Positions 1 through 62,107 of a DNA stretch of 64,000 nt are shown piece by piece. The first letter of the stretch is position 1; every line of letters starts with the position of its first letter. The translations under genes were made by a program, and so were the position numbers. The notes under the pieces were generated by a model. That model was not told the DNA's origin. It was given only the letters and a program-made list of their open reading frames with translations, and ran no database searches. This DNA comes from Gordius sp. MW1 (taxonomy: Eukaryota > Nematomorpha > Gordioida > Gordea > Gordiidae): assembly GCA_964036665.1 (NCBI GenBank), contig OZ038533.1, forward strand, positions 16,302,575 through 16,366,574, given 5' to 3'.

Positions 1-7
1 TTCGTTA

Positions 8-840: not shown

Positions 841-883
841 ATCTAAAGCACTTTCACTTTATAATTGCAATATTGTATTTTAG

Positions 884-34034: not shown

Positions 34035-37000
34035 TCATTCATAATCATTTGGATAGCTTTGCTGTTGTTGTAATTGCTGTTGCTGCTGTTGTTGTTGTTG
34101 GAACAAATTTTGAAAGCTATTCTGGTTTTGGTATTGTTGATGAAACGAAGATTGATAATTTTGATAGTTTTGCTCATTGTTTTCATCTTCGTCATATCTA
34201 TTCTTGTTTTGATTATAGTAATCTCTGAATCCTCTTTGAAAAGCCTGTGTTATATTCCAATGCAGAAGATGAGAAATGTAATGAAATGCATTTATTATGA
34301 TATTAGTTCTTTTATTATATTTTAAGTTTGTTATCGTGTAAATATATATATGTGTGATTGTATATATATTAAAACAAGGAGATTTTAATTTATAAATGTA
34401 GAAGTTTATTATTAAACCTTTAAATCACATGGTGTACAAGCGATGTGGGGAACGTGATTGGCGCCCCTGATGCATTGGCATCTTTGGCACGTGGTTTTGA
34501 TATTTTGAGCAATAAGTCGCGGCAAAACCACAAAAATACCCTTTTTCCCCGGACCCTAAAAATTGACGTTTTATTGTATATTATCTTTTTTCACCAATTT
34601 CCAGTGTTAATTCCGTATTACAGTAGTTTATGGCAAAAATGTGCTAATAAATTGGTAGGACTAACATAATTGTAAGCAGAAATTTGAAAGTAAAGTCCAC
34701 AATCATATGTCTAGTGTGTTTATACCTTATTACGTAGGTAAGCTTGATTGAATATAGCTCCGTGGCTACCTTGACTAACGATTGATAAAGGATCTTTACA
34801 ATCTCTCACACGCTTTCTCAATTCAGGATCTCCGACAACAGGATTATCTTTGGCATCTCTTGGAGTAAATGCGACTAATTTATTAATTCCTGTAGATAAT
34901 TACAAAAATATATTTAGAAGAATCATAAATTCTTTTAGGCTTCATAAATCAAATTATCACTTTAGATTTTAGGATAAAGTGTTTGATTGATTACATGATC
35001 TTTTAATTACCTATAACATTTTCTTCTCTATTAGCAATCAATGGACATGGATTTAAGGTGTACAGAGTAACGCCATTTTTAACCAAAAGATCCTTCACCG
35101 TTTCTGGGGAGTGTTGCTATATTATCATTGTAAAGTTTTAATAAGAAGAAAAAAATATAATCATTACATTGTTTTGGCTCCTAGATGTAGAGATCAAAGT
35201 TATGATATTGACAGTGTTTGTGTGTGCTGACATGAGAGTGGCTACTGCATAAACAGCATCTAGTGGGTATTGCTTAATGTCGGGTGTGAGCCTCAACGTT
35301 TTTAACGTTCCTTCTAAGTATTCAAACGGGAATATGTATGTCCCCTTCGGAGTTGTATAATAGCGAAGATCCACGTTGTTGTCCAAATTTCCATAACCCA
35401 CGACGGAATACATTATTTTGTTCCCCGGATGTCTGCGCCTCAGTTCGCTCTTTAGTTAAAAATATATATAAGAACATTGCTAATATTAAACCCTATTCAT
35501 TTTTACAATAATAACAGTGTTAATTCTAGCTATAATGTTAATCTATCATAATTTCAATGTTAGATTAAACCAGCCCTCCATCACACTTTACTTGATATTT
35601 TAGCATCAGTATACGATGCTAACCATTAAAGCACATTTATATAATATTTGGTAATGAAAGTCTTTACTTCGGTGTTTTTGAAGATTATGTTTAATTCAGC
35701 CTCTATATCTTTTAGAGCTGTCGATTCGTCAAAAAGGTATGTTATATAAATCGATTTAGTCGATTCTTTTTGCTGGGCTACGGAGAGTGTAATAGATTCG
35801 GATGGATTGAGATCGTGCGTAAATGCGGGCATATCGCGAGGAATGTGACAAACATCTTTTGCAATACGCAAATACGACAGCAATTAAATTAATCAAAATA
35901 TTAGTGGTGGTTTTGATTTGAACATAATATTATATCATCAAGTACTATACGCTGTGGCTAAACTATCGCTTCAGAATTTACAAATAGTTATATTAGGTTT
36001 TAAAGTTTGATTACAATTTGATAAATATACAACGAATAACGGGTCTAAATAGTAAGCCTAGATTAGGTATTAGGTAAGGTTTAAGCGTATGAATAAGTAA
36101 AAAAGATTGAATTTACCGCATTCCTTAGGGGGAGCCACTTTAATGTCTCTAAGACTGCATTCTTGGGCTAAGACACGGGCAGTCATACAAACAGCTTGAT
36201 GAGGATTGTGGGCGGGAACGTTATCAAACATGGCTTGTAAAGTTTCTCGTGTATATTTGGAATCACAATTTCTGCCAGGAATTAAGGATATAAATCATCG
36301 TCTCAGATTATTGACTTATACGAGTTTAATTTAATAAATCAATGAGACTTTAAGACTATATAGGTTATTATTACCTTAAAGCTCCAGCTCTATTTCGTAT
36401 GTATTGTTGCGCCACGTTTCTATACATCTGCGCGGCCCTCTCATTACCAGCTTGTGCTAAGGTGCGGTGGGCATTTTGAGCCAACTCAACTCTCTCTTGG
36501 CATTGATTTGTTTTCCATGAGGAGATAAAATTTTGCAAACTGCCTCGATTTCTGTCGTTTTTAGCACTACCATGTCCTTGGAAGCTAGATAAAAGGACTT
36601 CGCCTTGGGGATTCATAAATTCATTGTCGTGATTATCATCATTGGTCCCAAACAAACCTTTGTTAGATAAAAGATTGAGCTATAGTGCCAATGACCATTT
36701 AATATGAGTTTTATGAACGAAAAATAATAAGTAATCTTATTTAAATTTAGCTATTGAACTTGTCATTTAGTTTGAAATAATTTTAATAATTTGTGCAATT
36801 AGAACTCTCAAAGGGTTACCAGCAACTTTATCGTCATAAGTGTCTTCTAGGGCAACGAGTACAGAATTGGAGTCAGGCTGAAACTTTAACAATAATCCTT
36901 CTTGGCTATGGATAATAACTTCGTTCGGATATTTCAGGACTTCGTAATCGTTATTTATCATAGGTAATCTCACAATTGAATTGTCTATTTTAACCTAAAT

Positions 37001-37422
37001 AAAGAGAGGAAAATTATTTTATACATTACAAACAACAATTTACTTGATGCCCAGGCCCCAATTCAATTCTTCGTTTGCCTTTTAGCGTGGCCTCCACTAC
37101 AAGACATCCATCCTGAGTGTGCCAAGCAGCGATGCTCCAGCTTTTATCTTTCGTATCTTGGGCTAATATGTATTTGCATGTGAATGGGTTTAGTGGATAA
37201 ACATGTTTATCCCATGTTAGGACGTGAGAACTGTTGATTAAGGCGGCGAAATGCTAATCATATAAAAATTTAAACACGTAATTGTTACCTAATTCTAAAA
37301 ACATTATGACAAAATTTGAGTGGTATAGGAATTACCTCAGCTTCGTCTAGGGCTTCGGGGAAATTTATGTAAACATTTGGATGTCCTCTAATCCCAATTT
37401 TGTCTAAAACTTGTCTCACAAT
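34035..37422 (-). other. VWD domain, VWA-like region and polyglutamine tail exons
   Basis: Exons 37422-37336, 37253-37044, 36994-36820, 36657-36375, 36271-36117, 35855-35668, 35449-35168, 35116-35011, 34889-34726 and 34244-34035. The VWD domain is shown by [21 protein letters not shown], then [20 protein letters not shown] (usual consensus GLCG, here GLFG), with paired cysteines through PKEC. The next exons contain [19 protein letters not shown] and [14 protein letters not shown], which read like the strands of a degenerate VWA fold. The last exon ends in a run of Gln (nine consecutive, then more) and the stop. The VWA assignment is inference. Confidence 0.8.
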
Positions 37423-40400
37423 CTGTATTATACAAAAGGCATTTATAGCAAATTTTAGTATACGTATAATTCCTTACATTCACCAAAGTTTTCCATCCTG
37501 TTATATCTTTCGTATCTGGAGCTTGTTTGAACGATGTCCATTCGAATGGTAGAGATATTTCATAATAGGCCTCTCCCGTGTCACTCTCAAAAACTGTCAC
37601 TCTTGGAAATAGGTAAGAGAAGGGTGACAAAGGTGATTGCGGGGAAATGACGTATCTCAGATATTTCATAGCGCGACTGGCATCATAGTTTAGCCTTTGC
37701 TTGATGTTGAAATATTGTTTTTCAGCTGATTGTTGCCGTTGTTCATTGTCATCTTCATCCCTCTCCTTCAGTCCGATTAAAGCGAGAGATTGTGAGGCCA
37801 AATTTTGACTCCAACTATTGCTGCTGGACAAAGCTGATTGACTTTGAGACGACGATGATAGTAAATTTAGCAAATTTAAGCTATTGGAATTGCTATTTTG
37901 ATTATTGTTTGAGCTTGCGAGTAGTAACCTCTTCAAACTTGAAAAATAATATGTATGTTTAAAAGATTAAAAATATTAATCCTACTTATAGCGAAGGTTA
38001 TACGGTATGTCTCGTAAACTATTTATTTTTCGTGTCCATCCTTTTAATTTGTTAGCCATAGCGTTGTAGATGTAATCGAGTTTGTATCGGAAAGTGGTGC
38101 TACTTGCTAACACCCGTTTAATGTAACGCTTGATTAGAACCATTTCAGCCATCATATCAGACATGAAATTACCCAATTCTTCACTCAGAGATTCTTGGTT
38201 CTGTGATCTTTGGGGTGATTGGGATTGCCTGAGTCGAGATTGCTGGCGATAATTTTGTTTGTAATGCGAAGCTCTATTAGGTTGTTGATTATTCTGCCTG
38301 ATCTCATCGTCGTATTCGTAATCATAAGCTGAAGCGGCATATTCGTTGAGTTGATGTTTAAATTTCCTGTAATACGATTGCAAACCTGAGTTGCGGTCTG
38401 TAGGATCGATGTCTAATTTGTTCTTGATGTCGGTAAGGAGATGATTCCAGCCTGTGGCTGCAAGGCTACCAGCGTCTTTTTGAAAATCGTCCACGATTTC
38501 TTCAATAACTTTGAGCAATTTGGCATCCCATTTAAGTTGGACCGAAATGTGTCGAGTATCATTAAGAATAACGGCACCTTTGATTGCTGGAAGATCGTCC
38601 GCATCTGGCTTGTCAGGGGATTGCTCAAAATGTATTTTACGACCTCTGACCATTTTGGGTTTGATAATATAAACCTCAAGTGACACTTTAGTGTCTGAAT
38701 CGATCATGGCGCGAGCGTAAAGCTTCTCTCGGTACTAAAATAAAAAAATACAAGTTTATGATAACCATCATAAAATGTTGTTTTAAACCTAGTATAAATA
38801 TAAATAACCTTGATATTAAAGGCGAGCGTATCTGTGTTCAAATTAATGACGGACGCAGATTCTTTGCTTTCCTTAGGATCTCCAATTTGCACAATGACCA
38901 TGTAGTTAGGTTTTTTGGTATTCACAAACACTTGGAAAGTTAAATCGGTATTTAAAATTTCAATTGACGACACTTGGACTCCTGTTTCCGGCTCTATAGA
39001 ATACTTGATATCCACAGAGCGGTGATTGCCATCGCTCATTAAGTAGGAAGAAGCCGAGCGAAAGTCAAAATATCCTGTAGGTTTCTTAGCTAGATGCCCC
39101 TCAACCGTCCAATCCAATTTGACGTCCGTTTTAAAGATACGAAACAGCCAAGTTATGTTAGTCAAATGAAGATGTGATTTATCCTAACCAAGCAAGTAAA
39201 GATTTGTTTAAGAAGTATGTAAACATTGAATTCGATAAAAACAGAAACAATTTTATATATATTTGCCTTTCAGATATGTCAGGCTGGAATTTATTAATAG
39301 AAAGAATATTATTACTACTAAATTTATGGCTATCACATGAGGAAATTTAACAAACAGCTTATTTGGGGAAAAGTTAGTTATTATGAAGATATACAATATT
39401 TTACTTCTAAATTAAATTGTACACCAAAATTTTTGTTGGCCCTGTATTTGAAGATTGAGTTTAATTCCACTAATTCGTTATCTTCATTTAATTCAAGTTG
39501 ACTTTCAACGTTCCACGGTTGTTTCCAAGTTGAATCTACAACGCTTGTAACTATCGCATAATGCATATGCTTGTTTCCAGACGCATCGGTGCGGGGAGCA
39601 ACTTCCTTTGAATCTGTTTCGGATTTTATGGACAAAGTTCTTTGAGGCTCATTCTCTGCATCAGGTTGAATTTCTATAACTGTTTCATAATGTTCTCCAT
39701 TTTCACCAATCTTAAAACATTTCAAAGAGTAAAAGTAAATAAGTAAATTTGTTGCCAAGGGTATATATTTAATATACACGATTTGTGCTATTGGTAGCTT
39801 ACATCTTTAGGCTCGTGTCTTAGTTGAGCTTTAAAGACGCGTTTAGACAGTTGGATTTGTAAATCACCGGTCATGATGGTTCCCTTATTAAAATCCAACT
39901 TCAATTCTACTTTCCTTTTCATCAATGGTGTAATAAACATGTTAATATTAAGGGTAACCCCTTGGACCAAATTACTGAATACGAAACCATATTCAAGGAC
40001 GTATTGATTGGCAATAAATTTAATATTGGTTTCAAATTCCAATGGCAGTTCGATACCCGCTATGTCTCCTATTGTGGACTCTCGATTTGGATTATAATAC
40101 CTTTGCTGCTGACTTTGATGATAATTTTGCCTCTGACTGTGCTGATAATTTTGTCGCTGACTCTGTTGATAATTTTGGCGCTGACTCTGTTGTTGATAAC
40201 TGTTAGGCCTGAAGTCTTGATATCTAGGCTGTAAATACAAGACCAATAGTAACATATGTCTGATTCATAAGAATTTTAAAATATTTGTGGTATTTGAATA
40301 AAGTTTAGCTGTCATAATTTATAAGTGAACGTGTTTTAATTTGGAAACTTTTAGATTATGAGTAACATATGAAGCGTAATAACTTGAGTAGCTAAAGGAT

Positions 40401-43400
40401 AAATGGTTTTTATGTAAATTTTGTTTCCATGCCAGTTCCCGTTAATCAAAACGTTTAGGTTTTCATCGACCATTACTCTAATATCTACGGCTAGATTTTT
40501 AACGGTGGCCGAATGGACTTGTACTGAAACTAATTATAAAACAATGAAATGAAAATTAAATTATGTCACTTATGAAAGTTTCAAATACACAACTATTCAT
40601 ATTAATATTACTCTCAAATCGAGGGTCAACTTGTAGCGTAACATGTAATGACATTTGACGTTCTACATAAAAATCGAAAAAATATTTTAGTTATATCATA
40701 ATGATTTAAGACAGTAATTATTATTAGTGAGTACCTATATTAGTTTGTGTTTGCCAGGATATATCGTAATTTTGATCCCATTTGCTATTAGCCTTTTCAC
40801 CTTTGACCTGAACGCTTATTGACTTAGCCTCGGAAAAGCTTGATTCAGCAGATACCTAAACCATTTTAGTTTTATTTAAAGAATATAATCAAGCTTAATA
40901 AAAATTATAATACATAATTTTTGAAAATTAATTATTATTAATAAACTTACGTGAATGTTAATTGATTTTCCTTCAGTATATGTCCCATCAACGTTAGCTA
41001 AAAGCTTGTGCTCATTGTGTGTCAACTTGACTCTACCCTCTACTTTGCTATTAACAGCAGTTAAATTGAGAACCATATCAACGTTTTCGGCAGCCCACCA
41101 GGGACTTGTTATAGTCAAACTAGTTGACAATCCTTGGTCATTTGGTCTATTATGCAAACATTATGCTTAACACAAAGAGTTTTAAAATAGAATATTTTAA
41201 GTCGACAATTAAATATTCGTACTGTTTTTATTTGACATCTATCTTAATGTATACCTTGCCCATTTTTTGTGTCTCAAAGATAATTTAGTTTCTTCATTTT
41301 TGCCTCGTAAATCGACATCTAATTTTGCTTGGGAACTGTAATCGTCGATAAAGACAGTCGCGGATATGCGGTTTAAATCTGGGTTATGATCGTTGTCGTT
41401 TTCGGTAGTCCTCTGCTCCAGGAGCAACGTAAGATTATGCGTTTTGTCACCTTGATCGGGATACTCAATCAAAAGGTTGTAAAATTGTTTTCCATCGCCC
41501 AAGTCATAATCGATCAGAGCCCTATAATAATTTTATTAATAATAGATTATTAACCAACAAAAGCTTCAACAGTTTATAAATATGATTTTACAATTTATTA
41601 AATTGATTTTGCAAGGGAGGGAAATTAATAGATAATGAAATTTAAACTTAAAGAGCTTTAGTATTTTATGGTAGTTATATACATATTTTGTGAAATGATA
41701 TAAATAAGAAAGAAGTGTTTCCACCTAGGATCTAACTGGGGATTTTGTGCCTGTCAAGCGAACTTGATAACTAATACACTATAAACGAGTGTTATAAAAA
41801 GACGTAGATTTTGTTTAGTCGACCTATGGCTCAACTAATACTAACGGCTTAGCCAAAACAGAGCATCATCCTTTGATCTGCTTTTCAGATTTAGTCTAAG
41901 CCTAGAGGTCGACTAAGAAAAACAGACCAAAAACCTTTTGTCTACTTTTGTTATGTCGCCTTAACAAATGTCCGGTCTTTTGACAACACTACAATAAAAT
42001 ATTAATTGGAGACTAACTTGATTTCAGAAGGGCTCTTGTAAGATAATACATAGCGTGCGTATAAGGATTCATCTGAAGAGCTTCCTTTAGCTGATGATCT
42101 GTCATCTCTCTTGGGATAAATGTCAATTTGTCCATCACTCTTAATTTCGAGGTTGGATTCTTTATCCAAACCAAAATAAAGTTTTATCCTCTTATCGGGA
42201 TTTCTGCGCTCGTCATAACGTATGTCCATATTCAATTCAGCTTTCTCAGCTTCACTTCGTGAATCCGAAAGATCTGTCACAAGAGTCCCGGCTCCACTGA
42301 CTTTCCTACCACTTGAAGAATCCGTTGCAACCTTTATATTCATTCTTGAATGTTCCGATTTTTCGTTGTTCACTGAGAATGTCCCGTTAAACCAGGACTT
42401 TTCGTTCATAAAAATATGAGCACTGAGATCGGCTAGGCGGATACCATTTTTAAGTGTGCCTCTTTCATCATCTGAATATTTGAAATTTTATAAATACTTG
42501 TCATTTTTAAAGAGTCAACAATAAATTAAGAGATTTGTTGGTCAGAAAAATTTATGTCATTTCAGAAAATTTTACTACTCCAACTAACAAGCAAAAATAA
42601 CATGAGTATGGGTAGCATTAGTCTTGTCTAAAAGTATTTGAGATGATAATAACGTACTCGTTTTAAGAGACGAATAGATTGAAATGTCGTGATTCCATCT
42701 AGGAGCTTGGGTTGATTCTACCACTGATACATATTTGAAGGTGTGATCCACGTTAACACGTTCATAGTAAATGTATTTCTTGATGTTTAACCTTCAATTT
42801 AGCAATAAAACCCAATAAAGTTTCATATAATATTCTCAACATATCGAACTATTTATGTTTAAAGGGCTTACCGATGATTTTCACGGTTTGCTAGAGTGTA
42901 ATCAGCATTGAATTTTAGATCGTAACTTTTATGGTTGTAGGATGATACCCCATCCACGTTAGCTTTAAAACCATCTGGAATGTATATTTGCGCCCAATAA
43001 GTCATGGCATTCTTATCCGAATCTGAAAATATGGTTATAAAAAAGTCACGGCTAAAACAAGCAAATTCAATATTACCAAAGTTACTTAATTTAACATTTA
43101 AAAGTGCTATACCTTGTGGCCTAGCGTTTTGAGTTGATTGTTGCTCGATGTCATCAATGCTGGGGGCAGCCGAGTAAGTCATATTTAATTTTGCATAAGT
43201 ATTCTTTCTTTGAGGATCGATATAATCGTAAGTAAAGAATTTTGACCTTTGTCCCGATTTCTGTTCATAACGCGATTCATAAGATCCCAAATATTTATGG
43301 ACTTCATTCTTTTCCGTTTTAGCTACCAGACTTGCCGATGTTTTATACATGTTTTCATCCCTCAAATTACCTAACCCAACAGCGAATGAATTTTAGTTGT

Positions 43401-46400
43401 TTTTTTCCTATCGTAATGACTAATTCTCTATTATAAATACCTTCGACTTCCCAATGTAGATCGGGTGCTTGTACAACTAAGTTTAACGATTTTTGTTCGA
43501 CATTGACCTTTCCATGTGCCTCTAAGTGTCTATCAGTGCTAGCCCCAGGAGTGTCCAAAGTTGCCTTTAAACTATACTCTGACTCTGCCTATATAAATGA
43601 TAGAAAAAAAATAAAATGTGAAGCTGATTAGTTAAGCATACTTCTTTGGATGCGTCCAATTTAATGTTGTATTCTTTGATGGAACTGTCGCTTTTTTCCA
43701 GTGTAATTTTGGCAGCCATGATTCCTGTGGGGATATTTTTGGGAGAAGAGAGAGTAGATATTGAAGGATGAACTGTCTCTAGGCAAGTTTCTATTCCAAA
43801 CACTTTGGCCACTTTGTCACCACTACACATTGACTTTTTGATTCCGTGCTCGTCTAGCACCTTTTCTCCCGTGTTAGAGATGTAGAAAAACTCATTCCTT
43901 AAAATGTAATAAACTTAAATTTATGTTTGTAAATATTGATTTGAACTTTAAAAGAGATTAACAAAAATTAAGAGGCGCATTTTTGGAGATTTGTTTAATT
44001 AAAGAAATAATGTTGATTTTACCAGGTGGTAAAGATTTCCTGTTTTTCTGGAAGATCAATTTTAGCTCTAAGTCCTGTTTCAAGACCAAAGTTGATTTCG
44101 CCACTGAGTTCTGTGTTCGTGTGGAAAGTTGATGATATTCCTACGCCTGATTGGCTGACCCCAGTCAATGAAAGAGATACGTGGGTCTTGATAGCAGCAC
44201 TTGATAACAATTTTACATGGTTATGGTTTTGAATATCGTATAAGATGCTTTATTAAAGATATATAAATAACGGCTTTTTTAACTGCATTCCCTTACAAAA
44301 AGTGATATTACATGATTGCTTAACGTTTTTAAACAATTTAACATTATTTCGAAATAAATGTAATAATACCTAGGTTGAATTTGTCCTATTAAAGTGACTT
44401 GATGGGGGGAGGTGAGCATTTTGCTAAAGTCCATTTTCCCATTCAATTCAACATTAGATACGAGGCCAGACCTAATGGTCACGTTTACCGGTATACCTAC
44501 ACTAGTTGGAATCAAGGTTGTGGAATCAAAGAGGAGCGTAGACTCTGTAATACTCGTTTGCTAAAAAAAAAGAAGAGAAGCATATACACAATTCTTTTGA
44601 TGGAGTTTAAAACAGGATAATTTGCCGCCTAAAGAGAGTAGATTTCTCTAAAGACTTTTTTAAATTTAAATAAAGCTATATACCCGTGGACCAAACACAA
44701 AAACAAAATAGAGTTCCATTAATTCTTTCACTCTTATTATAATTAAACCCAATAATAAAGGTGAATGAGAGTAACCAGTTACCTGAGATTTTGTAAGCTG
44801 AGCCAATTTTTGCAATAGGACAAAAGGGTTAGCCAAAGTTTCTTTAATATCTTTCCCATAAATATCAAAGAAGGCGATCTCGTTTCCTTGTATCTTCAAG
44901 CTCGATAATGCACGAAGGCTTTCAAATCGAGGATCCGAAATAAATTGAATTAAACCGGAGGCTAGATTAGAGAAATCAGTATAATCACCATTTGCGTATT
45001 CATCAAAAGCTTTAAATAAATGCTCTTGTTCCTCGTATTCATCTTGGTTATAGGAAGCATGTTGTTGTAGCGACCTAAAAAAATTTAAAGAATTGTCAGA
45101 TATAATTTAATATGGTGTCATAAAAGTGAGTGAAAGCAAGTTTTTGGGGCTGCTTAAACCGTTTGCGATTGTTCGATTGTTGATCGTTTTGTGATTGAGA
45201 GGATGATGAGGATTGCTGCAATAGGTTTAGGTAAGGCCTTCTTCGTTCTGAATTTTGTTCGTAATTCCGAGATGATTGTTGTGGCAAATAATCAGTCATT
45301 TCGAGTTGTAGTGCAGCCTATATAATATTGAATAATACATCAAAATAATGTGACAAATGAAAGTAAGATGTTATTAATATTTACCTCGAAAATATTAAAG
45401 TTTAATCCAAATAGATCAAGAGTCAAATTGTAGACTGCGGATCTAGGAATGGCTCTATCGTAAAGTATGTGTCCTTCAGAAACGAGTCCAGTATCGAGCA
45501 TGTCAGAATAGAAAGAGGATTCAAAATGCCTGGAAATTGGTGATGATGCTGTATTGCTTCCAGCTCTATAATAATAATCTCGCTCATTTTCAGACTGGTC
45601 TTGTTCACGCTCTTGACCAGCGTTGTTTCTATTAATGTATTTCATCGCTTGTTCGCTTATGGCTCCCACCATGCTCTCTTCTTCAGCCATAAACTTAAGT
45701 TTTAGCTTGTGTGGGTCGGAACTGTCCTCCAAATTTCTGTAAAACGTGTAGGCCACCGTGAGCACTAATGAAAAAATAAAGAACTCTTATACTATGGTGT
45801 ATGGAGTTCTACAAATGCCAACATAATCTAAAGAAGTGTTTACTTTTAATCAATAGGTAAATGTAAATATGCTAATGCAGATTTAAATGACTTCGTTATC
45901 ATATTTAAAGATATTTAATTATATTAATTATTACTGATTTATCATTCGAAAGCCTATAAGTTTATCTATTAAACATAAAATTTAAATCTATGGAACAATG
46001 TAACAATATAGCATGTAAGTAATATAGATTTAAATTGGGGATTGCGAGGTGAGGCCTAGATGCAAATTTCAATAACGTACCCTCTTTGTTTGCTTCGTTT
46101 TGAAGAGTTTGCCTTATGCGTTTTAATGATGGCTGACTCGGGCATTTATTAAGTAAGAAAAATGCTTTGACTCTGACTTCTACATCATTGCCATTTTGGA
46201 AAAGGTCCATTAAATCGGCATGAGCTTTGCATGGCATCCTTCTTAAAGCATCGACCGCAGCCGATTTAATTTCACGTGGAGCATATTGATTTTGGAAACA
46301 GGCTAATACGTTTGGTATCAAAGATGGGGAAAAGCCCATGTTACCCAACGCTTTCAGGGCTTGTAAAGTCTGTCAAAAAATCAGGTTTATTATATTTGAT

Positions 46401-49400
46401 ATAACATTCGTTTTTATAGAATTATTAGCTAAAGGCCCTAGGTGATTTTACTATTTTATTGTTTTGCACATCATCGGAAGCGCCATTGCACGAATGCAAT
46501 GAATGCGCGATGAGATTTTGGACTTTCCTAGCTGTAGGGATTTGATCCAAATCTTGGTAGTGTGGCCTAGCCTCAGCTAGGTTGTGGATTAGACTGCTAA
46601 TTGCCATGGCTACCTCTGGATAACTTTCAAATCGATCCAAAAGGGGCTATGTGGAAAATATATTTGGTGTCATTACATAATTAAGTATTATTTACCTCCA
46701 TAGCTTCGACCATCTCTAATTCGGGCTCACTTATGAATGCACATGACAGAATCCAATACTTGGTATGGGCCCGGGATAAATCATTTGCCTTAATAATTTC
46801 AACCATTGCCTCAACAGCTTCGAGTGTGGCCGCCATGGGTACAGCATCGATGAAGAATTTGCTAATAAATTATGTTATGCTCGTAAATTAGGCATTGTGT
46901 AAGCATTGTGATTAGATAAAATTAAAATTTGTCCATCTTATCATGAGGTAGATTAATAATTAAATAGCCCAAGATAGACATTACTAGGAATGTTGTTTAA
47001 AGTTTGCTATTGAATTATGTTTTCCATCAAAAAAGGCTGTGATCCAAGAGAAGTTTTATAACCATTAACTTACTAAGAAGTAGACGTTATATCACTGCCA
47101 GAGTCTGGGTTTTGGCCTTGTCGCAATTTGTGATAGATTTGAATAAAAGATTCTTTGGACAGTGTTCTCACCAGATCGACTAATTGTATAAAGGCTTGGG
47201 GAGCATCCAGCTTAACACCTTTTTTGTTATCTTCGGCCATTCTTTCTAGATGCTCTAAAACTTCTTCGGAGTTTCCATCTCTGTTTGCATTACTTCTATC
47301 AGCTAATCTAGAATCTGACAACAAGCGACTCCTGACATAATCTAACAATAAAATACAATGATTAAAGCAATTTAATCAAAAATTAATTTTAGATCTTATT
47401 TATAAGGACTTTCTTTTCATTCTTGCATAAATAAATCTAATATATATAAACGGTGGTTTATTTAAATTAACCAAACTCTGCTATAATTAGACTTATAAGG
47501 GTTCTTAAGAAACAACAAATTATCGGTAGTTTACATAAAAATTTCAGATGGTTAACAAACAAATAACTAATTATCATTTGAAGTGAGACTTTTTTAAATC
47601 AGACTAACCATATGATCTATGTTGCTGAGATGGGTCATAACTGTATTGGTCTTGAGCATGGGGGTGACTGCCAACATATGTAAGACTTTGCCTAGTTTCA
47701 ACCGAAAACGTGGGCTGATAATCTCTGTTATTATCCTTAGATGGATGAGAAGTGTCAGGACTGCTAAATACGAATTTCTCCTTACAATCAGCTCTATCCA
47801 AAATTTGTTCCCGTGATATTTTTTGCCTGCAGTCCTTTTTCCCATTCAACAAAGATACCGTTCTTTGAGCCTAAGTTAAAGCACACATTTATTTTATAAT
47901 TGATAAAGTTTTTAATATAAATCTGTCATTAAAATAAAAAATAATAAAAGTTTTAAAAAGATTCCATTGACATACCGTATCAGTTATGGTTGGAGCATAG
48001 CCAATACTATCCTCGTGATACCTCTTTTGCATGCATTTAGACAAATCTTTAGTTTTACTGATTATTGTAAAACCGTTATCAGAACGATCGATTTCGTAGA
48101 TTGTTGGACATGTACCAGACATATCGCCCTTTAAAATTATATAACAAACTCATATTATGTAATCTTCAATTTTATATAAAAAGTGTAATATGCTTAAATA
48201 TAAAATAAATTTAAGTAGTAAATTAATTTGGGAAGTTAACCTCATAGACCACTTCTCTCTGATTGAAATCTTTCATGGTATTCTGCAACATGGTTAAAAT
48301 ACCCTTCTTGATGTCTATTACTACTGGATTTTCCTCCCTTTGACCACAAACGTCATCAATACGGCCATCTTGAAATGAGAACCTTAAGGGATGCCTCAAT
48401 AATTCTTCTGCTATTTGTTTGTTATCACTGTCGTCATCTGGTTTGATATTTAAACGTAAATAATTCAAAAGGATTTTTGAAATGCAATAACTATGATTTA
48501 TTCTTATAAAATCATTCATTATTTCTTCGTATTTTAATGATTTACTGATAGTTAAGAGACTGTTAAAATACACAATATTACTATATTACCTCTATCATTT
48601 CCCGGAGAACGTTTTTTGCCAGTTATGTCAGCGGCTTTAACCTAATAAAAAATAATAAGTGTTAATATATTTTATTTATTTAAGATTTTAAGATATTTAC
48701 TTTGAGTTCCAATTCACACTCAGCAATGACTCTAATTTCGACATCAGCTTGAATTCTATGTCCCGAGATGGCTTGATTCCTCCTTGAATCAGCTGATCGA
48801 TCCGAAATCGATGTGTCTATTTCAGCTTCATATTTGTACTTGTAAATTTTCCCCTTTCTGATATTGAATTTCTTATGAGACCCTAAGCACAGTTTTTAAA
48901 TTTATTTTAAATCGTAAATATGAGTTTTAAAAAATATGTATTACCATCACATTTTTTGGCACAGCTCGGCTCATCGTCTGCGTATCTTGCCCCATCTGTA
49001 CAACAATTTAATTTAATTGTTTTTTAAATTCAATTATTGATTTTATTAAAATTTAGCATTTTTCAAAAAAAAATTTTTTTAAGTTACCTCTGCTGTAGTA
49101 GTTATCATTTCTATTGGAATTCGGATTTTGTACGTATTGATATCTTTGCTGATTTTGTCGAAAAGAATTTTCAGGATTAGATTGATAATTTCGTTCGTCA
49201 TCTTCATCTCTTTGTTGATAGTCTACATTTTTAGAAGTAAGCATTATAATTTTTGATTTTATATTAGGTTTTTATGTGTTAGTATTAAACAAAAACTCTT
49301 TTTACTATAACTCGGTTGGTATCTTTCTTGTACATTGGGTTCCTTTGGATTTGAATATCTATTTTCAAATTCATTATTTTCTTCAATTAGCTCATCTAAA

Positions 49401-51250
49401 AAATTAAAATTGAGTTTTTTGAAAAATTTGAAGATATATAAAAATGTCATTTGATTTTAGAAATATATCTTCAGTTCAACAAAAATTTGTAAACCAATAC
49501 TGATATACCTCTATTTTTTAAAGAATAGCTGTACCGTTGGTTTTCATGTTGAAGAGAATTCTGCTTATTATTGTCTAGAAGTAAATAAAAATGTTTTCTA
49601 AATTCAGTTTTTATAATATATTTTAAAAATATAAATGTTAAAATCTCATTCTACCCTCTTCGCTGTTAAAATTTTTTTCATTAGCTTTTTTAACAAATAT
49701 TTATTACTGTTATTATATTGAGATGCTCTTTCAGATTCGTATTGATAATTATGCTTGTCACTTTGATCATCAGGATTTACAGAAAATTCACTCTTTATAC
49801 GATCTAATAATGTAAGGCCCAAGTGAAGAATCAATTAAATTTAAAATTAATTTACCTAGTAGTTGGCAGGCTGGGCTCTCAGGGTTATTTTGGCAGGTGT
49901 TTGGCCTGCGGGGAGATCTCTTCTTTCTCGAAGATGCTCTCAATCCAGATTCTTCACAAAGAGAGGCAAAAACAATTTATAGAATTTAATTTTTAAAATT
50001 TAAAATTTTTTTAAATAAACTAATATTTTTTTCGCATAATAATAAAATACCACAAATAGCTTCGCACTCTTCTTCCGTCTTAAAATTGTTGCCATTCGAT
50101 TGACAACCACCATAAATGAAAATCTTGCAATTCCCAGTCGCACTATCGAAATACCATCTTGGGATGTATGCTCTGCATGGACCTGTAAAAGCTCCCAATT
50201 GACATATCGCGGGAGATTTTGGGATAGCATTAGAACGGTCTCTTCCTTGTTCCTGATCTCTGTCATAATTAATTCTAGCACTGTCTTCTCTATTGTCGTT
50301 CTCTCTATCTTCAGAATTGTCATTATTCTCTTCTTCTCTATCATTATTGTTATTATGCGCGTTATCATTTTCAGTTTGTTCATCGTCAGTTTGTATATCA
50401 TCATTATCTCTATCATTAGTTCGGTCATCTTTAATGCTTGGAACCCTATCTCGATTATCCTTGTCAGCATTATTGGGGTCGTATGGATTATCTAAGTTCA
50501 AAGGCACACTCATGAAACATGAATAGTTTATGATTAAAACTTTAGATTATATTAGTGCTATAATTATAAGTTTTAATATTGTAAGCCAAAGCCGAGTTCG
50601 TAAAATCATATGGTTAGATACACACAACCTTTTTTCATTATATAGATTTACTTTGTTCACATTTCGCGTCCCATCCCCTGGCCTTAATACAGAATTTAAG
50701 ATTAATTAACTTTCATTCATATTCCTTACATTATAATAAATATATTCTTTTCTTATTCTATTGGTTCATGCTTTTTTATTATATATGTTCGCGTTTAACG
50801 TTTGGAAAAAAAATAGTTTGTTAAACCCCAATAATTTTGACCGTATATTGTAACATTTATTATACTTTTATATATCTAATTCGAGAAAACTTCACCCTTG
50901 TATATATGACGTCATTATTGTATATGATGCTATAAATGAAATTGCTGGCCGGGAAATGTCCAATATTTTTAAAACGAAAAGGTTTTTTAGGAATCTGAAA
51001 AGCTATTTTACCCCTGGCCGCCCTGGGCATCTACGGCTAAATTTTCGCGCGAATCGGGCCGGTAGTTTCAGAATTTAGCCCTTTTTTAAAACTAAAAGGA
51101 ATTTTAGGATTCTGCAAAAGATTTTACCCCTGGCCGCCCTGGGAACCTACGGGTAAAGTTTCGCGCGAATCGGGCCGGGAGTTTCAGAATTTAGCCCTTA
51201 TCTACATACATACATACATACATACATACATACATACATACATACATAAA

Positions 51251-51284
<34 letters not shown>

Positions 51285-53616
51285 CACTTTACTTTATATA
51301 TATAGATTTATCACTATAAACACTATTATGCTTAAAGTAAATTTGTAATTTCCAATGCAAAAATGGCTTACCGGGAGTAACACCAGCGCACACATTTTCA
51401 CAAGTGTCATAATCGAGGAAATTGTTTCCGTTTGATTGACAGCCACCATATATAAATTCGCGACAGTAACCAGAATTTATGTCGTAATAGAAACGGGGCA
51501 TGTAGGCTTGACACATCCCGCTAAATTTTGGTCTATCGCAAACCTCTAAAACCGCATTAAATTCATTTTATCACTTACTATTCAAATTGACATAACGTTA
51601 ATCTCTTCTTTTCCATTAATATCTATACATTATTATTCACTTTACTCTCTAGCATATTTTATATATTTGTAATTTTAAAAAACTCTTTGAGACAATAATC
51701 CTATTCAAGTCTTGTGTTATTGTTGTAAAAACGGTTGGGTTTTGTTTAATCGAACTTGGGTTTTAGTCGACTATACTCAAATAAACCAAAGATTTTTTGG
51801 TCAAACCTTTGAGTGGATAGTTACCTCTTTTACAAGTGCGTTGGCAAGTTTCAACATCTTCAAAGTTGTTCCCATTGCTTTGACAGCCACCGTAAGTGAA
51901 AGCTTTACATTCGAATGTTGTGGTATCGTAAAAGTAACGCATAAACGAAGCTCTGCATGGACCCGTGTGTGCCGGTAAATGGCAATAACCTGGAACATCG
52001 ATATCACTATCGGGTTCATCTGGAGTCGGATCGGGGTCAGGATTGTTAGAATCTAATCATTTCATATTATAAAAGAGTTAATTTATGGAAGTTAGACAAC
52101 CTAGCTGCTTATACAATGATGCTTTGCCAAACTTGTCCAAGGTTTTCTAAACGTTGTGTTAATCGAGAAAAAAGCAAGGATATTACTTAATAACGAAGTA
52201 TGTTTAAAATAATTTAAAAATTTTAATTTATTTTGGCCAAGCAATTAGTTGTTAAGTTTGTTATTCACAAATTGTTTTGTTCCAAAATTGGACTGCATTA
52301 AATTGCTTTATATATGGTTTACATGATCCAATTTATAAGGGGGGGGGGGAGGTAATGTAATTCTTAAATTGTTAATGGGTATTGACGAATTATATGATTG
52401 TATTTTAGATTATTAATGTTTTTGGCGGCTGCAAAGCAGTTTAAAATAAATTTCGCTACTCAAGGCCCCTAGACAGTTAAAAGATCCATATAATTCTTTG
52501 TAAAATTGGGCAGAAAATTGTTTATTATAACTATGGAGTAAATGGGCTATTAATTTTTTCACATTCAAGACTATGTAAAAAATTTTGTGGAGATAATTTG
52601 CTAATAAAATATAGTTGTTTTTTAAAATTTAGTAATTATCCAGTAGTTTTGCTACCAGGGGGCTAAGTAAAGATAAAATTTACCTGGTACGACACCCTGA
52701 CATAAGCTATAACAATCATTCTTTGTATCGAAATTGTTTCCGTTCGATTGACAACCACCGTAGATGAAAGGCTTACATCTTTGGGTATTTATATCATAGT
52801 AATACTTGGGGAAATAACCGAAGCATGAGCCAACTTGCTTTGGCCTACCGCAAACCACTGGTAAAAATAAGATGAAATAAACTCAAATGCCATATCATAT
52901 CGAAAGATACCTAAAAAAACACGAGTAAAAAAATGAAAAAAATGAAAAAAATGAAATATTTTAGTGAATTTAAAACCTCTTTTGCATGTATTTTCGCAAG
53001 CATCCATAGTTTGGAAGTTATTTCCATTGCTATTGCAGCCCCCGTAAATGAACGATTTGCAAGTATTATCTTTAAAATCGTAAAAGTAACGCGGAAAATG
53101 AGCTCTACACCGTCCCGTATAACCGGGTAAATAACAATATTTCGGAACTGAGACTTTACTAATCTGAGGTACAATCTGACCGATATTTTGATTCGATCCG
53201 GCCCGGTCTTGTAATTCATCCGAACCAGGTCGGGTATATAATTGTTGGGCAGATGAAGATTGAAAATTTTGGCTTAAACCAGGAGGATTTTGGTTGCCGC
53301 CAGCTCCAGATAGATGGGCTAAACATTGGGCCTTTTGTTGAGCCGTATTAAGCCTCTCGCATTGGGCTGGTGTGCCATCAGCTGATTGATCATAAGCTTG
53401 AGGAGCCTCTTCTAAGTCCCTAAACCCGCCTTGATCTCGTCTTTGTAAGTCTTGAAAGTCTTCGTGCAAAAATATACATCAAAATTACGTTGGCAATTGT
53501 CGTAAATTATAAATTTATGATAGGAATTTATGAGATAAATAATATCTACCTTGATTTATAATGTATCCGAAAGTCCCTAAAATTATGAGGCCCAAAAACA
53601 ATGGCGAAGGCCCCAT
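34035..53616 (-). CDS. Five-Kunitz large lipid transfer protein (apolipophorin/vitellogenin superfamily), complete
   Basis: I read 52 exons, from ATG at 53,616 to TGA at 34,037-34,035, every junction GT/AG and in phase. They total 11,421 coding nt, or 3,806 residues. Order: signal peptide (1-20); five Kunitz/BPTI domains (about 130-522); basic site RKKR (531-534) in a short linker; acidic Asn/Gln-rich linkers; lipovitellin-type N-terminal lipid-binding module from about 690; a second basic site RKR-S (1466-1469); long beta-sheet lipid-carrying region with low-complexity inserts; VWD domain (about 3,217-3,490); VWA-like region; Gln-rich tail. Such proteins load lipid in the secretory pathway and circulate as lipoprotein or yolk. 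Length and VWD position suit an apolipophorin/discoidal lipoprotein better than a vitellogenin (about 1,800 residues). Introns carry a family A MITE (41,787-41,991) and others. The Kunitz fusion is the odd feature; a chimeric gene model is the main alternative. Confidence 0.92.
37478..43588 (-). other. Beta-sheet lipid-carrying region exons
   Basis: Exons 43588-43441, 43370-43113, 43022-42872, 42791-42658, 42471-42018, 41521-41255, 41146-40951, 40855-40735, 40662-40612, 40529-40384, 40228-39803, 39710-39405, 39183-38809, 38734-37986 and 37937-37478. They encode long runs of amphipathic beta-strand sequence with few cysteines, as in apolipophorin and apoB (for example [16 protein letters not shown]). 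Exon 40228-39803 opens with an imperfect octapeptide repeat around QSQRQNYQ. Exon 38734-37986 carries a [11 protein letters not shown] insert. Exon 37937-37478 starts with an Asn/Ser/Leu-rich tract. These inserts look like disordered loops. Confidence 0.88.
41787..41991. mobile_element. Family A MITE in an intron of the lipid transfer protein gene
   Basis: GAGTGTTATAAAAAGACGTA at the left, GTCTTTTGACAACACTA at the right, and both GTCGAC-rich arms present. It lies in the intron 42017-41522. It is diverged from the other copies, so an old insertion. Confidence 0.75.
43642..48882 (-). other. N-terminal lipid-binding (LLT/Vitellogenin_N) module exons
   Basis: Exons 48882-48701, 48641-48590, 48437-48241, 48128-47976, 47870-47609, 47341-47074, 46861-46696, 46646-46452, 46369-46081, 45764-45385, 45317-45160, 45074-44783, 44560-44370, 44199-44023 and 43897-43642. 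Hallmarks: [22 protein letters not shown] with [20 protein letters not shown] and KTKDLSKC; the helical-repeat region ([32 protein letters not shown]); then [14 protein letters not shown] and the sheet start [19 protein letters not shown]. This is the fold shared by vitellogenin, apoB, MTP and apolipophorin. RKR-S at the 45,160/45,074 junction, in a Ser/Gln-rich loop, is where insect apolipophorins are cut into apoLp-II and apoLp-I. Confidence 0.92.
48945..49951 (-). other. Basic cleavage-type site and short acidic Asn/Gln-rich exons
   Basis: Exons 49951-49856, 49803-49708, 49574-49509, 49395-49306, 49222-49088 and 48995-48945, all phase 1-1. The first holds [15 protein letters not shown], a strong proprotein-convertase type site (R-x-K-R followed by Ser) directly after the Kunitz array. 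The next four encode disordered Asn, Gln, Glu, Tyr-rich peptides of 22-45 residues. The last ([13 protein letters not shown]) opens the lipid-binding module. Cleavage at RKKR would release the inhibitor array from the lipoprotein; that is inference. Confidence 0.85.
50971..51285. repeat. Tandem 117-bp repeat ending in a TACA microsatellite
   Basis: Two direct copies start at 50,971 (AAAACGAAAAGG) and 51,088 (AAAACTAAAAGG). Each contains TTTTACCCCTGGCCGCCCTG and TTTCGCGCGAATCGGGCCGG, and ends GTTTCAGAATTTAGCCCTT. The second runs into a (TACA)n tract at about 51,201-51,280. All lies in the intron between Kunitz exons 5 and 6. The GC-rich monomer and simple-repeat tail suggest a retroposed or satellite-like sequence. 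Confidence 0.75.
51721..51805. mobile_element. Half family A MITE beside a splice donor
   Basis: TTGTTGTAAAAACGGTTGGG, then GTTTTAGTCGAC and AAGATTTTTTGGTC. Only the left half remains. It ends within about 20 bp of the donor of the exon 52052-51825 of the lipid transfer protein, so the insertion defines most of the start of that intron. Confidence 0.65.
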
Positions 53617-57683: not shown

Positions 57684-58265
57684 TTAGCCGATATTTTCCC
57701 CTCTAGCCTTGTTACTAGGATCCTTTCCATAAGCTTCAAGGAGTGGCAAGTTAGCTTGATACCTCTGTATTGCCACAGTCATGATGGTCTTCTTGTTAAA
57801 TAAGGGTATTATCGTGCTTGCTCTCCATTGATTAGGAATTCGCTCTTCTGCCAATATCTTGTTAAGGAGGTTCGTCGTGGTGGTTACTCCTTCTTCACGA
57901 CATCCGAGCAATGCTTCCATAAGTATTCTATCTAGGCCATTAGCTTTTCCTTTTTGCATCTTGTTCATTTGTGTCCGAACTTCATCCTCCTGAAAGAGTT
58001 CGACCATACTTATGTTTGACTCAATATCCAGACAGGAATCTTTGTCATTTGCAATATTCATTAGTTTCATAAAATATCCTTTCCACCTTTCCATCACTTC
58101 CTTCGGCTTGAATAAGGTTGGACCCTTCTTGTTTTTGACTATTTTAAGAAGTCCGACATCGCGACATATTTTCTCCCTTATCTTGGCCAATTTATACATA
58201 AGCCTTTCACCCTCTTTATGATCCAGTTTGTTTGCCATCTCGGTGTACGCGGAATTCTTCGCCAT
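57684..58265 (-). pseudogene. LINE reverse transcriptase fragment
   Basis: A 193-codon open stretch covers the linker and first RT motifs: ERWKGYFMKLMN, then VELFQEDEVRTQMNKMQKGK, and IPNQWRASTIIPLF. Motif 0 and 1 are recognisable; the catalytic YxDD region would lie further toward 57,300, where the frame is broken. It belongs to the LINE at 56,726-59,600. Confidence 0.8.
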
Positions 58266-59425
58266 TGCAACTTTTATGCGGCTCTCTTTGCGTCCTTATA
58301 CTATTGATAATCCTCCGACATTTCTTGATTTATGCCACCGTATATATAGATTTTCTTTCTTTCGATGAAATCCCTAACAAATTGATAACATCACCATAGT
58401 TCCCTATTCATATCTTTTCCTCCTTTGGTCTGTCCTAGAACACGAATCCCTGTTTCCTTTATGTCCTTAGTTAGCGTCTTTAAATCGTCGTTTACGCCCC
58501 TTTGCAACTTCCTTGCACCCAGGAGTGAGCAGGCATTTAGATGGTATTCTTCGTTCGTCGACATATCTTTTAGCCTTTCCTATCGAATTCGGGATTCATA
58601 GCTTTTTTTCTTTCGGGAAATACTCTTCTGTCAAGATCCATAACAAGGGGACGATGTTGCCTATCGATTTCTTCTCCCGGTATTACTTTGCAATCCTTGA
58701 TACTCCACAATTACTATTGCCGTATGAGCAGATAGTCAATTTAATTTAAATGCTTCCCACTTCTATAAATCACAATATGATCCTCGCGTTTATGAAAATA
58801 TGTGTTAACGATCGCCATCGTATGCTTGGGATACTTGTAGAAGTTTTTCCCCTTCATTGTTCTTCGGATCATGCCCATATCCTTCATGATTGCGTTCATG
58901 CCCTGCGCGACCTTTCCCTACGTGAGCGTTGAAATCTGTTCCAATAATTAGCCTTTCTTCCTGTCCGATTCACTGAATTTCTTTTTCCAATAAATCGAAG
59001 AATATGTCTTTCTCTCTATTTGGGGAGCATATGCGCAAATAACTATTAGGCGGCCCCCTTTATCTGCAATCTTCACACACATTAGCCTGTCCGAACAACG
59101 CTTAACTTCCACAACCTTTTCTTTGAACGATTTGCTTAGAACCCTACCGACCCCGTTTCTAGGATTTGGTGACCCACTGTAGAATAGTTTGTATCCTTCT
59201 ACTAACTCCCGGCTTTGGTTCCGTTCTACCTCGTCTCTTGTAGGCAGGCGATGTGTGCCTTTCTTCTTAGCATTTGTGCGACCTCGATGCTCTTACTCGT
59301 TAACGTTCCCACATTTCAGCACGTTATTCGCATTCTTTCCACAACTAATTTCCTACGCCGCCTTCGTTGTGAGTTGGGCAGTAACCCTAGTGTATTTTTC
59401 ACAGGACGCGGTATGCAGTGCGCGT

Positions 59426-59555
59426 CTTTTGTGGAGGACGTCCCGGCTTTCTCTTGTACAATTTTGTTTGATATCATGATTTTGGAGTAGTGTGGAGGAC
59501 GCCCCCAGCTTTCTCTTGTGAAATTTTGTTTGTAACATCATGATTTTGGAGTTGT
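59426..59555. repeat. Two tandem 62-bp units at the LINE 5' end
   Basis: GTGGAGGACGTCCCGGCTTT ... CATGATTTTGGAGTAGT is followed directly by GTGGAGGACGCCCCCAGCTT ... CATGATTTTGGAGTTGT. The two units are about 85-90% alike by eye. Some non-LTR elements carry short tandem promoter units at this place. Confidence 0.65.
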
Positions 59556-59836
59556 TGTTCATAGCCAAATTCCGACCCGAAGCCAACCCTCCACTTTTTG
59601 CACACGGACTTGGGACCGTCGTAGGTAGTGTTAATTTGGGAACGATATTGTCATCATATTAATAACATAACAAACTCTAACTAAAGGTAATATTTTAAAA
59701 AACCTCAAAGTGCATTTGCTGTTTTTGCCCCCAAAGCTATAAAAGATACTTTAACTCCGAGAAAAACCAAAAAAAATCCACCGAATGCCCCAGAACATTT
59801 AGCCTTAAAATTTCGTCATTAACATTAGAACACATT

Positions 59837-60160
59837 TTAATGACGCCCATTTGGGAAAATTAATGACAAACCAGTATAAATTATACTTTTATTGTTGGGT
59901 AGAAAAAAATTACATTCACGACTAAAAAAACGCGCTAAATCTACACCGATGGCATTGATCCGTGTGTTGGATTTAACGATTTCCATTGCGATCTTTTGCC
60001 TGATAAAATAGTACTTTTTCAAATCTAATGAGACGTTAGATATCGCTTTTCCAATTTGTTTCAAGAGATCGAGAGCTTCAGTGACTAAATTTCCGATTGT
60101 TGTTGCCACTACAGGAATGAATGTTGTGTCCATGAGGGAGGAATATTTGGTTGTCTTCAT
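59837..60160 (-). pseudogene. LINE C-terminal fragment (second family)
   Basis: A 107-codon minus-strand frame contains FIPVVATTIGNLVTEALDLL and IRQKIAMEIVKSNTR. This matches the pattern of a conserved C-terminal helix block of non-LTR ORF2 proteins (PVxxETLG ... FLxQRxSxAIQRGN). It appears to continue the domain seen at 55,080-55,310, and comes from the same kind of element. Confidence 0.55.
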
Positions 60161-60551
60161 ATTCTTTGAATTTTACAAAATATTCTGAAATAAAAATATC
60201 ATGTCTAGTTGTTCATTTTGGGATATGTAATATACTTATAAGTTTTATTATAGATTCACTTGGAAACTATAACGTTTTATATTGAATTTTAATCATTAAA
60301 ACTATGGTCAAAAATTATTAAAAACGCCTAAAATATAAAAAGTAAAATTTGCTATAGCTTTAGCGCCTATCAAACTAAGTTAGCTCTTATATTTCAGATA
60401 TTTATCATATAATATCAACCTTTCTTGTTCCTTAGTTTCGCACGTTAAAAATGCTACCCGAAGATGAAATAATCTTCGTAAAAATTACGGTAACAGAATT
60501 TTTAAATAAATCCATGCAAGAGATCCTGACATTTCTTGCATAAGTCGTCCA

Positions 60552-60724
60552 CTTATGGGGGTAGCCAGCATTGGAATTAGAAGGGGTCAATAATAATTTA
60601 GGGCAGGGCAAAATCATCATTTTTTGAAATTTTAACTTGAATCTTAATAAATTTCAGCTTACTTTTGGATTTAGAAGAGGGCAGCTGCCCCTCCATGCCC
60701 CCCCTCTCTTGGCCACGCCCATGC
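60552..60724. mobile_element. Family B TIR element, full length
   Basis: ATGGGGGTAGCCAGCATTGG at the left and CTCTCTTGGCCACGCCCATG at the right, about 172 bp, with the standard body (AATAATTTAGGGCAGGGC; TTAGAAGAGGGCAGCTGCCC). There is no ORF. Confidence 0.78.
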
Positions 60725-60973
60725 GTCCACCCATGAACAATTCAGCCTAGGTGAGCAACACAGAAATTATCTATTGGTGAAGCAGATATGGACATAGACT
60801 AGATAGACTGCTCATGTCATATGTTCCATATGTTAAATTAATTGTGTGTCGAATTTTCCTCCATTTTGAAGACAACAACTGGTGTATTTCAACGATGTCA
60901 TTTTGCTCTATAACGCAATTTACCTTCCTCATTCGTTTATAAATTTGAACGAACTTCAATAAATTAATATTAT

Positions 60974-61145
60974 CATGGGCTTAGCCAGCATTGGAATTAG
61001 AGGAAGGCAATTAATTTGGGGAGGGGCAAAATGAATATTTTTTGAAATTTTAACCATAATTTTAATAGATTTCAACAAATTTTTGGAATTAGAGGGGGGC
61101 AGCCGCCCCCCTGCCCCCCCCCCCTTTCCCTTGGCTACACCCATG
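60974..61145. mobile_element. Family B TIR element, full length
   Basis: CATGGGCTTAGCCAGCATTG at the left and CCCTTGGCTACACCCATG at the right, 172 bp. It contains GGGGCAAAATGAATATTTTT, TTAGAGGGGGGCAGCCGCC and a 12-C run. It is the same family and orientation as the copy 250 bp to the left. Confidence 0.8.
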
Positions 61146-61439
61146 AATATTATACAAAATATACATGGCGCTATAATATTAAATAAACTTTCATCACAGT
61201 TTTTAAATGTAATTTTTATGTATTGTGTAAATGATAGTTATTTTATACTGCTGTTTTTGATATCTACCCAATTCAATTTTATATACCTTTTTAAGATTAT
61301 TTAATTTAAAAAAATACTATATAATCACTACTTTATCATGTTATATTTAAAAAGGTGGAAAAATGGTAGATATTTTGTGCGTTGATGCCCAGTCTATCTA
61401 ATCTATGGATATCTCCTTTGGGATGATGATGAATCGGAA

Positions 61440-62082: not shown

Positions 62083-62107
62083 GTGGCGACGTGAAACCTA
62101 CGCTGGG

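Follow-up and report, generated by a model that had tools for sequence, protein, structure and literature searches.

TFPI (formerly lipoprotein-associated coagulation inhibitor) is a multi-Kunitz protein found in association with lipoproteins; it is a separate protein that binds them non-covalently and is not fused to a large lipid transfer protein (LLTP). AMBP contains two Kunitz domains. In the available text of the source, AMBP is one precursor of a secreted lipocalin and a Kunitz inhibitor, which are joined by the sequence VRR and cleaved in the Golgi, and the reason for their co-synthesis has long been called a mystery (PMC7965949). Among the LLTPs, Daphnia vitellogenins carry a foreign, SOD-like domain N-terminal to Vitellogenin_N, and the accessible parts of the two reports make no mention of Kunitz domains in these proteins (PMC1783640, PMC2678069). 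Insect apolipophorin-II/I and decapod apolipocrustacein are large LLTPs with a VWD domain and furin/subtilisin-type processing at RX[RK]R, furin cleavage being known for the insect protein, while crustacean clotting protein is related to vitellogenin and VWD domains are found among the LLTPs, as far as the available text of the source goes (PMC1783640).

Here, we describe a predicted gene of Gordius sp. MW1 in which five Kunitz domains are fused to the N-terminus of an LLTP. It lies in a stretch of 64,000 nucleotides, here called the window. The first-pass annotation of this locus had compared it with Daphnia vitellogenin and its SOD-like N-terminal extension, and this comparison was correct according to the accessible text (PMC1783640, PMC2678069). 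Both proteins have a foreign domain ahead of Vitellogenin_N, but the added part is enzyme-like in Daphnia, whereas it consists of protease inhibitors here. AMBP differs in that its carrier is a lipocalin unrelated to LLTPs, its Kunitz part is C-terminal and it belongs to vertebrates; no lipocalin module was matched by Pfam in the fused protein, and the likeness between the two would be one of mechanism only. As described in the accessible text on the APO family, the processing site is inside the lipoprotein (725/728 in a shrimp) and DUF1081 is present, whereas in the fused protein RX[KR]R lies ahead of the lipoprotein and no DUF1081 was found. The vitellogenin/crustacean clotting protein branch has the same Vitellogenin_N, DUF1943 and C-terminal VWD as the fused protein, which adds to them the five-Kunitz array, a furin-type site and a C-terminal VWA-like region. 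We found no report of Kunitz domains in an LLTP in the open-licence PMC literature, and such a protein may be annotated elsewhere. The suggestion of a new lipoprotein architecture made in the first-pass annotation is partly supported, namely for the fused architecture as computed and for its novelty as far as the literature found is concerned.

The gene was predicted with our own Viterbi splice model, which combines codon usage, a third-order background and donor and acceptor matrices and was retrained on the predictions it made. ATG 53616 was set as the start, and the stop was left free. The predicted gene runs on the minus strand from this ATG to a TGA at 34035-34037 and comprises 53 exons, 11,682 nt and 3,893 aa (Table 1), with an AATAAA polyadenylation-type motif at 33816, beyond the last exon. 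A gene with this start and this end had already been proposed, and our independent model reached the same TGA with a free stop. The comparison of exon borders covered the four ends quoted in the first-pass annotation (50,491; 50,051; 48,945; 48,701), which were identical in our model. Its totals of 52 exons and 3,806 aa were one exon and 87 aa short of ours. Exons 14, 18, 31 and 36 are uncertain in the model, as they have a weak donor or are very short (the exon 18 donor is GTCTAC, with a score of -3.4, and exons 14 and 36 are about 50 nt each). That the exons join without phase conflict is weak evidence alone because any model builder enforces phase. Stronger support comes from introns 1-12, which are in phase 1 throughout, while introns 13-52 are distributed as 20, 11 and 9 in phases 0, 1 and 2. 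The resulting block of phase 1-1 exons reaches from the exon of the signal peptide up to the exon that opens the lipoprotein body. The signal peptide of exon 1 is the most hydrophobic segment of the protein and is conserved in D1 and D3, two copies from the 5' part of the gene.

Table 1. Features of the predicted Kunitz-lipoprotein gene and of its copies (window positions unless a chromosome is given).
Feature	Position	Strand	Basis or location
Exon 1: start codon and signal peptide (22 residues), ends in phase 1	53550..53616	-	splice model
Exon 2: N-terminal spacer and Kunitz 1 (residues 131-181; P1 Arg)	52977..53459	-	Pfam, cysteine pattern
Exon 3: Kunitz 2 (residues 186-236; P1 Phe)	52684..52857	-	Pfam, cysteine pattern
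Exon 4: Kunitz 3 (residues 265-315; P1 Arg)	51807..52052	-	Pfam, cysteine pattern
Exon 5: Kunitz 4 (residues 326-376; P1 Gln)	51372..51545	-	Pfam, cysteine pattern
Exon 6: acidic spacer and Kunitz 5 (residues 478-528; P1 Arg)	50051..50491	-	Pfam, cysteine pattern
Exon 7: candidate furin-type site RKKR↓SPRR (residues 537-540; nt 49928-49917)	49856..49951	-	motif match
Exons 8-12: N/Q/E-rich linker, every exon phase 1-1	48945..49803	-	splice model, coding-signal tests
Linker exons 8, 9, 10	49803-49708, 49574-49509, 49395-49306	-	
Linker exons 11, 12	49222-49088, 48995-48945	-	
Vitellogenin_N lipid-transfer module (residues 716-1296), starting with exon 13	45748..48882	-	Pfam, 1lsh
Vit_open_b-sht (DUF1943), residues 1368-1703	44031..45534	-	Pfam
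VWD domain, residues 3265-3404	36602..37232	-	Pfam, VWF chains
Exons 48-52: C-terminal region, weak VWA-like match (residues 3560-3698)	34418..35855	-	TssR_VWA
Last exon (53): Q/N-rich tail and stop TGA	34035..34244	-	splice model
D1: copy of the 5' end, exons 1-7	C7:16392556-16396130	-	same chromosome, about 40 kb downstream of parent, outside the window
D3: one-Kunitz copy, 8.7 Mb from parent, and linker relics upstream of it	C7:7618608-7619300 and C7:7629329-7630110		same chromosome, outside the window; the copy itself at 7.6186-7.6193 Mb

The LLTP part of the fused protein is approximately 3,190 aa long, and usual vitellogenins are shorter. Kunitz_BPTI, Vitellogenin_N and VWD, the three families named in the first-pass annotation, were all found in the joined protein, and Pfam placed the five Kunitz domains ahead of the lipid-binding module as had been described, followed by Vitellogenin_N, Vit_open_b-sht and VWD. 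In residues 1-1926, PF00014 (Kunitz) matched five stretches (E 2.9e-80), PF01347 (Vitellogenin_N) matched residues 716-1296 (E 5.4e-70, profile positions 3-586 of 590) and PF09172 (Vit_open_b-sht, DUF1943) matched residues 1368-1703 (E 2e-25). In residues 2408-3893, PF00094 (VWD) matched residues 3265-3404 (E 7.1e-16), a region that also matched VWF chains (E 1.8e-10). The five Kunitz domains all fit the cysteine pattern and all have a canonical reactive loop, GxC-[P1]-[A/G], with R, F, R, Q, R at P1 and A, G, A, A, A at P1'. With its Vitellogenin_N module, the protein falls into the LLTP superfamily, and the best solved relative of the lipoprotein half by sequence was lipovitellin 1lsh (E 2.5e-20), with MTP far behind (E 0.02). 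No match to DUF1081 was obtained over all 3,893 residues (Pfam, E up to 1 and 10), a search that a diverged copy could escape, nor was one obtained in the genome in a search run without a positive control. In the accessible part of the source, DUF1081 is common exclusively to the crustacean yolk precursor, apolipophorin-II/I and apoB (PMC1783640). This mark of the APO family was not detected in the fused protein, which shows the combination of DUF1943 and VWD without detectable DUF1081 that defines the vitellogenin/clotting-protein type. Judged by these published domain criteria, and because DUF1081 was not found, the lipoprotein half is vitellogenin/clotting-protein-like rather than apolipophorin-like.

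The C-terminal region matched TssR_VWA (E 2e-5, 24.2 bits, below the cut-off of 25.7) and had no sequence match among PDB sequences. A VWA-like region after the VWD is unusual for an LLTP. By eye, a degenerate metal-site motif was seen in this region (window 34418-35855). Further Pfam matches to bacterial Ig, FCD, Phage_connect_1 and similar families were dismissed as weak. We found no second LLTP in the genome, with or without Kunitz domains, using PF01347, PF09172 or a 1,054-aa lipoprotein query, every match of which fell within the fused gene; this exon-by-exon search is insensitive, since PF00094 missed the fused gene's own VWD and MTP, which is expected in every animal, was not found.

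The Kunitz and lipoprotein halves are joined by a linker of approximately 1.1 kb. Its sequence is low-complexity, and decayed relatives of linker exons 8-11 occur elsewhere on the chromosome. Two neighboring genes might have been joined by the model here, with exons 8-11 being non-coding or belonging to the LLTP's own 5' end, and both the existence of the Kunitz-only copy D1 and the AATAAA/ATTAAA motifs within the linker (49990, 49705, 49047, 49017, 48906) would fit such an arrangement. To score the linker, exons 7-12 were excluded from the training of the codon and background models; the splice matrices were held out as well in the comparison with real sequence, but not in the shuffle and one-versus-two-gene tests. 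The path through exons 7-12 scored 174.8, above all 200 dinucleotide shuffles (maximum 115.5, mean 103.4). With the splice matrices also held out, the score was 167.8 (102.8 in antisense), a value reached by 5 of 150 stretches of real neighborhood sequence. By eye, these five sit on or antisense to ORFs resembling transposon or host-gene coding, namely a mariner-like transposase and its antisense, a retroelement RNase H and exons of a MED13-like gene.

A single-gene path scored 1508.2 against 1496.7 for the best two-gene split, in which the second gene would start at ATG 49244 without a signal peptide; the split is thus a mere 11.4 nats behind, with no cost charged for the gene border. We also scanned 50,600-48,700 for exons running from an ATG to a phase-1 donor, and none came near the hydropathy of exon 1 (2.91). 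The highest value among the alternatives was 2.08, in an exon whose donor is poor, and several readings of exon 6 in a shifted frame reached 2.06, some with a fair donor; the first-pass statement that no second signal peptide separates the two parts holds in that no convincing one was found. Moreover, the linker exons are uniformly phase 1-1, and introns 6-12 measure 52-133 bp, so that no two neighboring exons predicted from exon 6 to exon 13 are more than 133 bp apart. A mis-joining of neighbors is disfavored by the two-gene path, the shuffles and the real-sequence controls, and we consider it very unlikely. The fused Kunitz-lipoprotein architecture is supported by computation: the splice model, the domains, the linker signal and the one-gene score all support the predicted gene, in agreement with the fusion proposed in the first pass.

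The motif RX[KR]R occurs once in the 3,893 residues, as RKKR at residues 537-540, starting nine residues past the last cysteine of Kunitz 5. This motif, which is not mentioned in the first-pass annotation, is a likely candidate for a furin-type cleavage site at the module border. On balance, it is probable that the gene encodes a secreted precursor, made of a signal peptide, Kunitz 1-5, the furin-type site, the linker and a full vitellogenin-type LLTP, from which the inhibitor is cut free by a furin-like protease. Such a precursor would enter the secretory pathway, its Kunitz domains would fold and, judging from the sequence features, a furin-like convertase would cut after RKKR. The products would be a soluble five-headed inhibitor and a lipoprotein starting with the N/Q-rich linker, which is probably disordered, and each lipoprotein molecule made would come with one free five-headed inhibitor. 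Its three heads with Arg at P1 would be directed at trypsin-like targets and the head with Phe at chymotrypsin-like ones, the fifth head having Gln. The role of the inhibitor would be to keep serine proteases near the lipoprotein in check, in yolk proteolysis, clotting or immune cascades.

The same gene evidence (splice model, domains, one-gene score, linker signal) would also fit a chain that stays uncut, with the five Kunitz domains held covalently on the lipoprotein as a protease guard or for targeting to clots or membranes. The furin motif may be inaccessible or unused, the two exon 7 cysteines just past RKKR (residues 548 and 557) could hold the pieces together, and in D3 the splice acceptor of the motif-bearing exon is gone. 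However, the protein's one consensus furin site lies where the modules meet, and the homology-based reading of D1 ends five residues past it; we regard the uncut chain as rather unlikely. Given the furin-type site after Kunitz 5 and the Kunitz-only copy D1, an inhibitor made together with the lipoprotein and then cut apart is at least as likely as one that is permanently tethered. A weaker motif, NRKR↓S, was seen at residues 1467-1470 (window 45159-45170), about 760 residues into the lipoprotein part and close to the position at which the yolk precursor of a shrimp is cleaved (725/728), according to the available text of the source (PMC1783640).

A DNA search with exon 1 pointed to three places among the best candidates, namely the parent gene, D1 and D3, and no lipoprotein exons were found in the examined stretches flanking either copy. 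D1 contains the upstream region, the signal-peptide exon, the five Kunitz exons and part of exon 7, and both the furin motif and the exon 7 splice acceptor are kept. Read by homology, its exon 7 runs to ...SRKKRSPGWP and then meets a stop, five residues past the furin motif, where foreign sequence interrupts the exon. The automatic model of D1 prefers splicing from exon 6 into the inserted DNA (273.7 versus 251.1 for the exon 7 stop); the program charges little for extra exons and the insert may hold other coding sequence, and the end of D1 after the furin motif is putative. D1 may also have fixed a short form that the parent makes itself, if one gene gave both the full fusion and a Kunitz-only isoform through intron retention or early polyadenylation after exon 7. 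Read-through of the exon 7 donor would reach a stop within about 25 codons (ORF 49788-49976) and an AATAAA is present at 49705, but this motif is common in AT-rich DNA, and the production of both forms appears quite improbable to us.

Compared with exons 1-7 of the parent, D1 has five indels in 1,632 aligned bases (interruption left out), all of which keep the frame, whereas 68 of the 95 indels in 3,098 aligned non-coding bases are not multiples of three. If indels in the exons had accumulated at the non-coding rate, 35.8 frame-breaking ones would be expected, about 18 of them on D1's branch. Over 522 codons, dN was 0.072 and dS 0.273, a ratio of 0.265 (bootstrap 0.18-0.37) that should be read with care, as dS may be overestimated given a non-coding distance of only 0.14; with this distance in place of dS, dN/neutral is about 0.5. 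Selection on both the parent and D1 is suggested weakly by the substitutions and strongly by the indels. The P1 residues differ in four of the five domains (R, F, R, Q, R in the parent and R, L, K, R, K in D1). Sequences related to the linker lie beyond D1, 12-17 kb further on (C7:16375059-16380507). Three of the five indels in these D1-side exons 8-10 disrupt the frame and a TAA lies in frame in exon 10, and hence they appear to be relics.

D3 consists of the signal-peptide exon and one exon in which the start of exon 2 is fused to the end of exon 6, both open, and its single Kunitz domain has Ile at P1. Although its DNA contains the furin motif of exon 7, the AG of the acceptor is changed to TG, and the splice model does not use the motif, ending D3 elsewhere with low scores; the copy may be decaying. 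With this mutated acceptor, D3 does not count as evidence for an end at the furin motif, and the idea that both Kunitz-only copies end there was rejected, D1 alone being readable in this way. The linker relics upstream of D3 are in a permuted order relative to D1. D1 and D3 probably descend from one interrupted ancestor, because both contain the same sequence interrupting exon 7 and the same sequence preceding the exon 8 relic. Parsimony would tentatively place the fused gene before the Kunitz-only copies, since in the opposite order the remainder of exon 7, a working donor, an intron and the first part of exon 8 would all have to arise through one deletion.

The Kunitz tree drew on 40 of the 60 matches outside the parent and D1. 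Four of those taken failed the cysteine pattern, and the tree contained 36 outside domains and 10 further members. D3's Kunitz domain was the one member of the tree to group with the array (0.90), and no outside donor was identified among the 40 of 60 matches sampled. An earlier Kunitz pair was probably duplicated within the array, because K1 pairs with K3 (0.75) and K2 with K4 (0.84). The continuous phase 1-1 block is what would be left if exon shuffling had placed the Kunitz and linker exons in a phase-1 intron following the exon of the signal peptide, and we infer such an insertion.

The genome assembly totals 211.8 Mb in 12 contigs, and TTAGGG telomeres were found at seven of the eight chromosome ends examined. 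By eye, the surroundings of the gene include MED13-like exons (window 1-11000, plus strand), a VWA-domain protein (15678-16046, plus strand), a cyclic-nucleotide phosphodiesterase (22697-23035, minus strand) and, at 57687-64000 and on toward D1, retroelement-like and mariner-like ORFs between the gene and this copy. Chitin_bind_4 cuticle proteins gave no genome match in a search run without a positive control. COX1 gave 24 genome matches, one of them on the mitochondrial contig C12, and the same COX1 fragment occurred four times with equal score on C4, which suggests amplified nuclear mitochondrial DNA. The mitochondrial contig has a perfect tandem repeat before COX1 (11-bp unit, 21.4 copies, 3714-3948), with ND4L-ND4-ND5 on the COX1 strand and ND2 inverted (genes named by eye), an order that we take to resemble the ecdysozoan pattern. 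The telomere repeat and the lack of Chitin_bind_4 matches speak against an arthropod, and with the mitochondrial order they would fit an ecdysozoan outside the arthropods.

Lipoproteins and serine-protease cascades meet repeatedly, for instance in clotting protein and AMBP, and the Kunitz-vitellogenin-type fusion, if true, would be an independent case of a carrier and a Kunitz inhibitor being synthesized together. The phase-1 block behind the signal exon suggests that exon shuffling acted on an ancient secreted protein family, and D1 offers a natural control for the function of the array without the lipoprotein. Tentatively, the single detectable vitellogenin-type gene could yield its own furin-released multi-headed inhibitor, with the propiece also set free in evolution as a separate secreted inhibitor with five heads (D1) and perhaps with one head (D3). 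Such a carrier-coupled system, if true, would be the LLTP counterpart of AMBP, tying lipid or yolk supply to the control of serine proteases.
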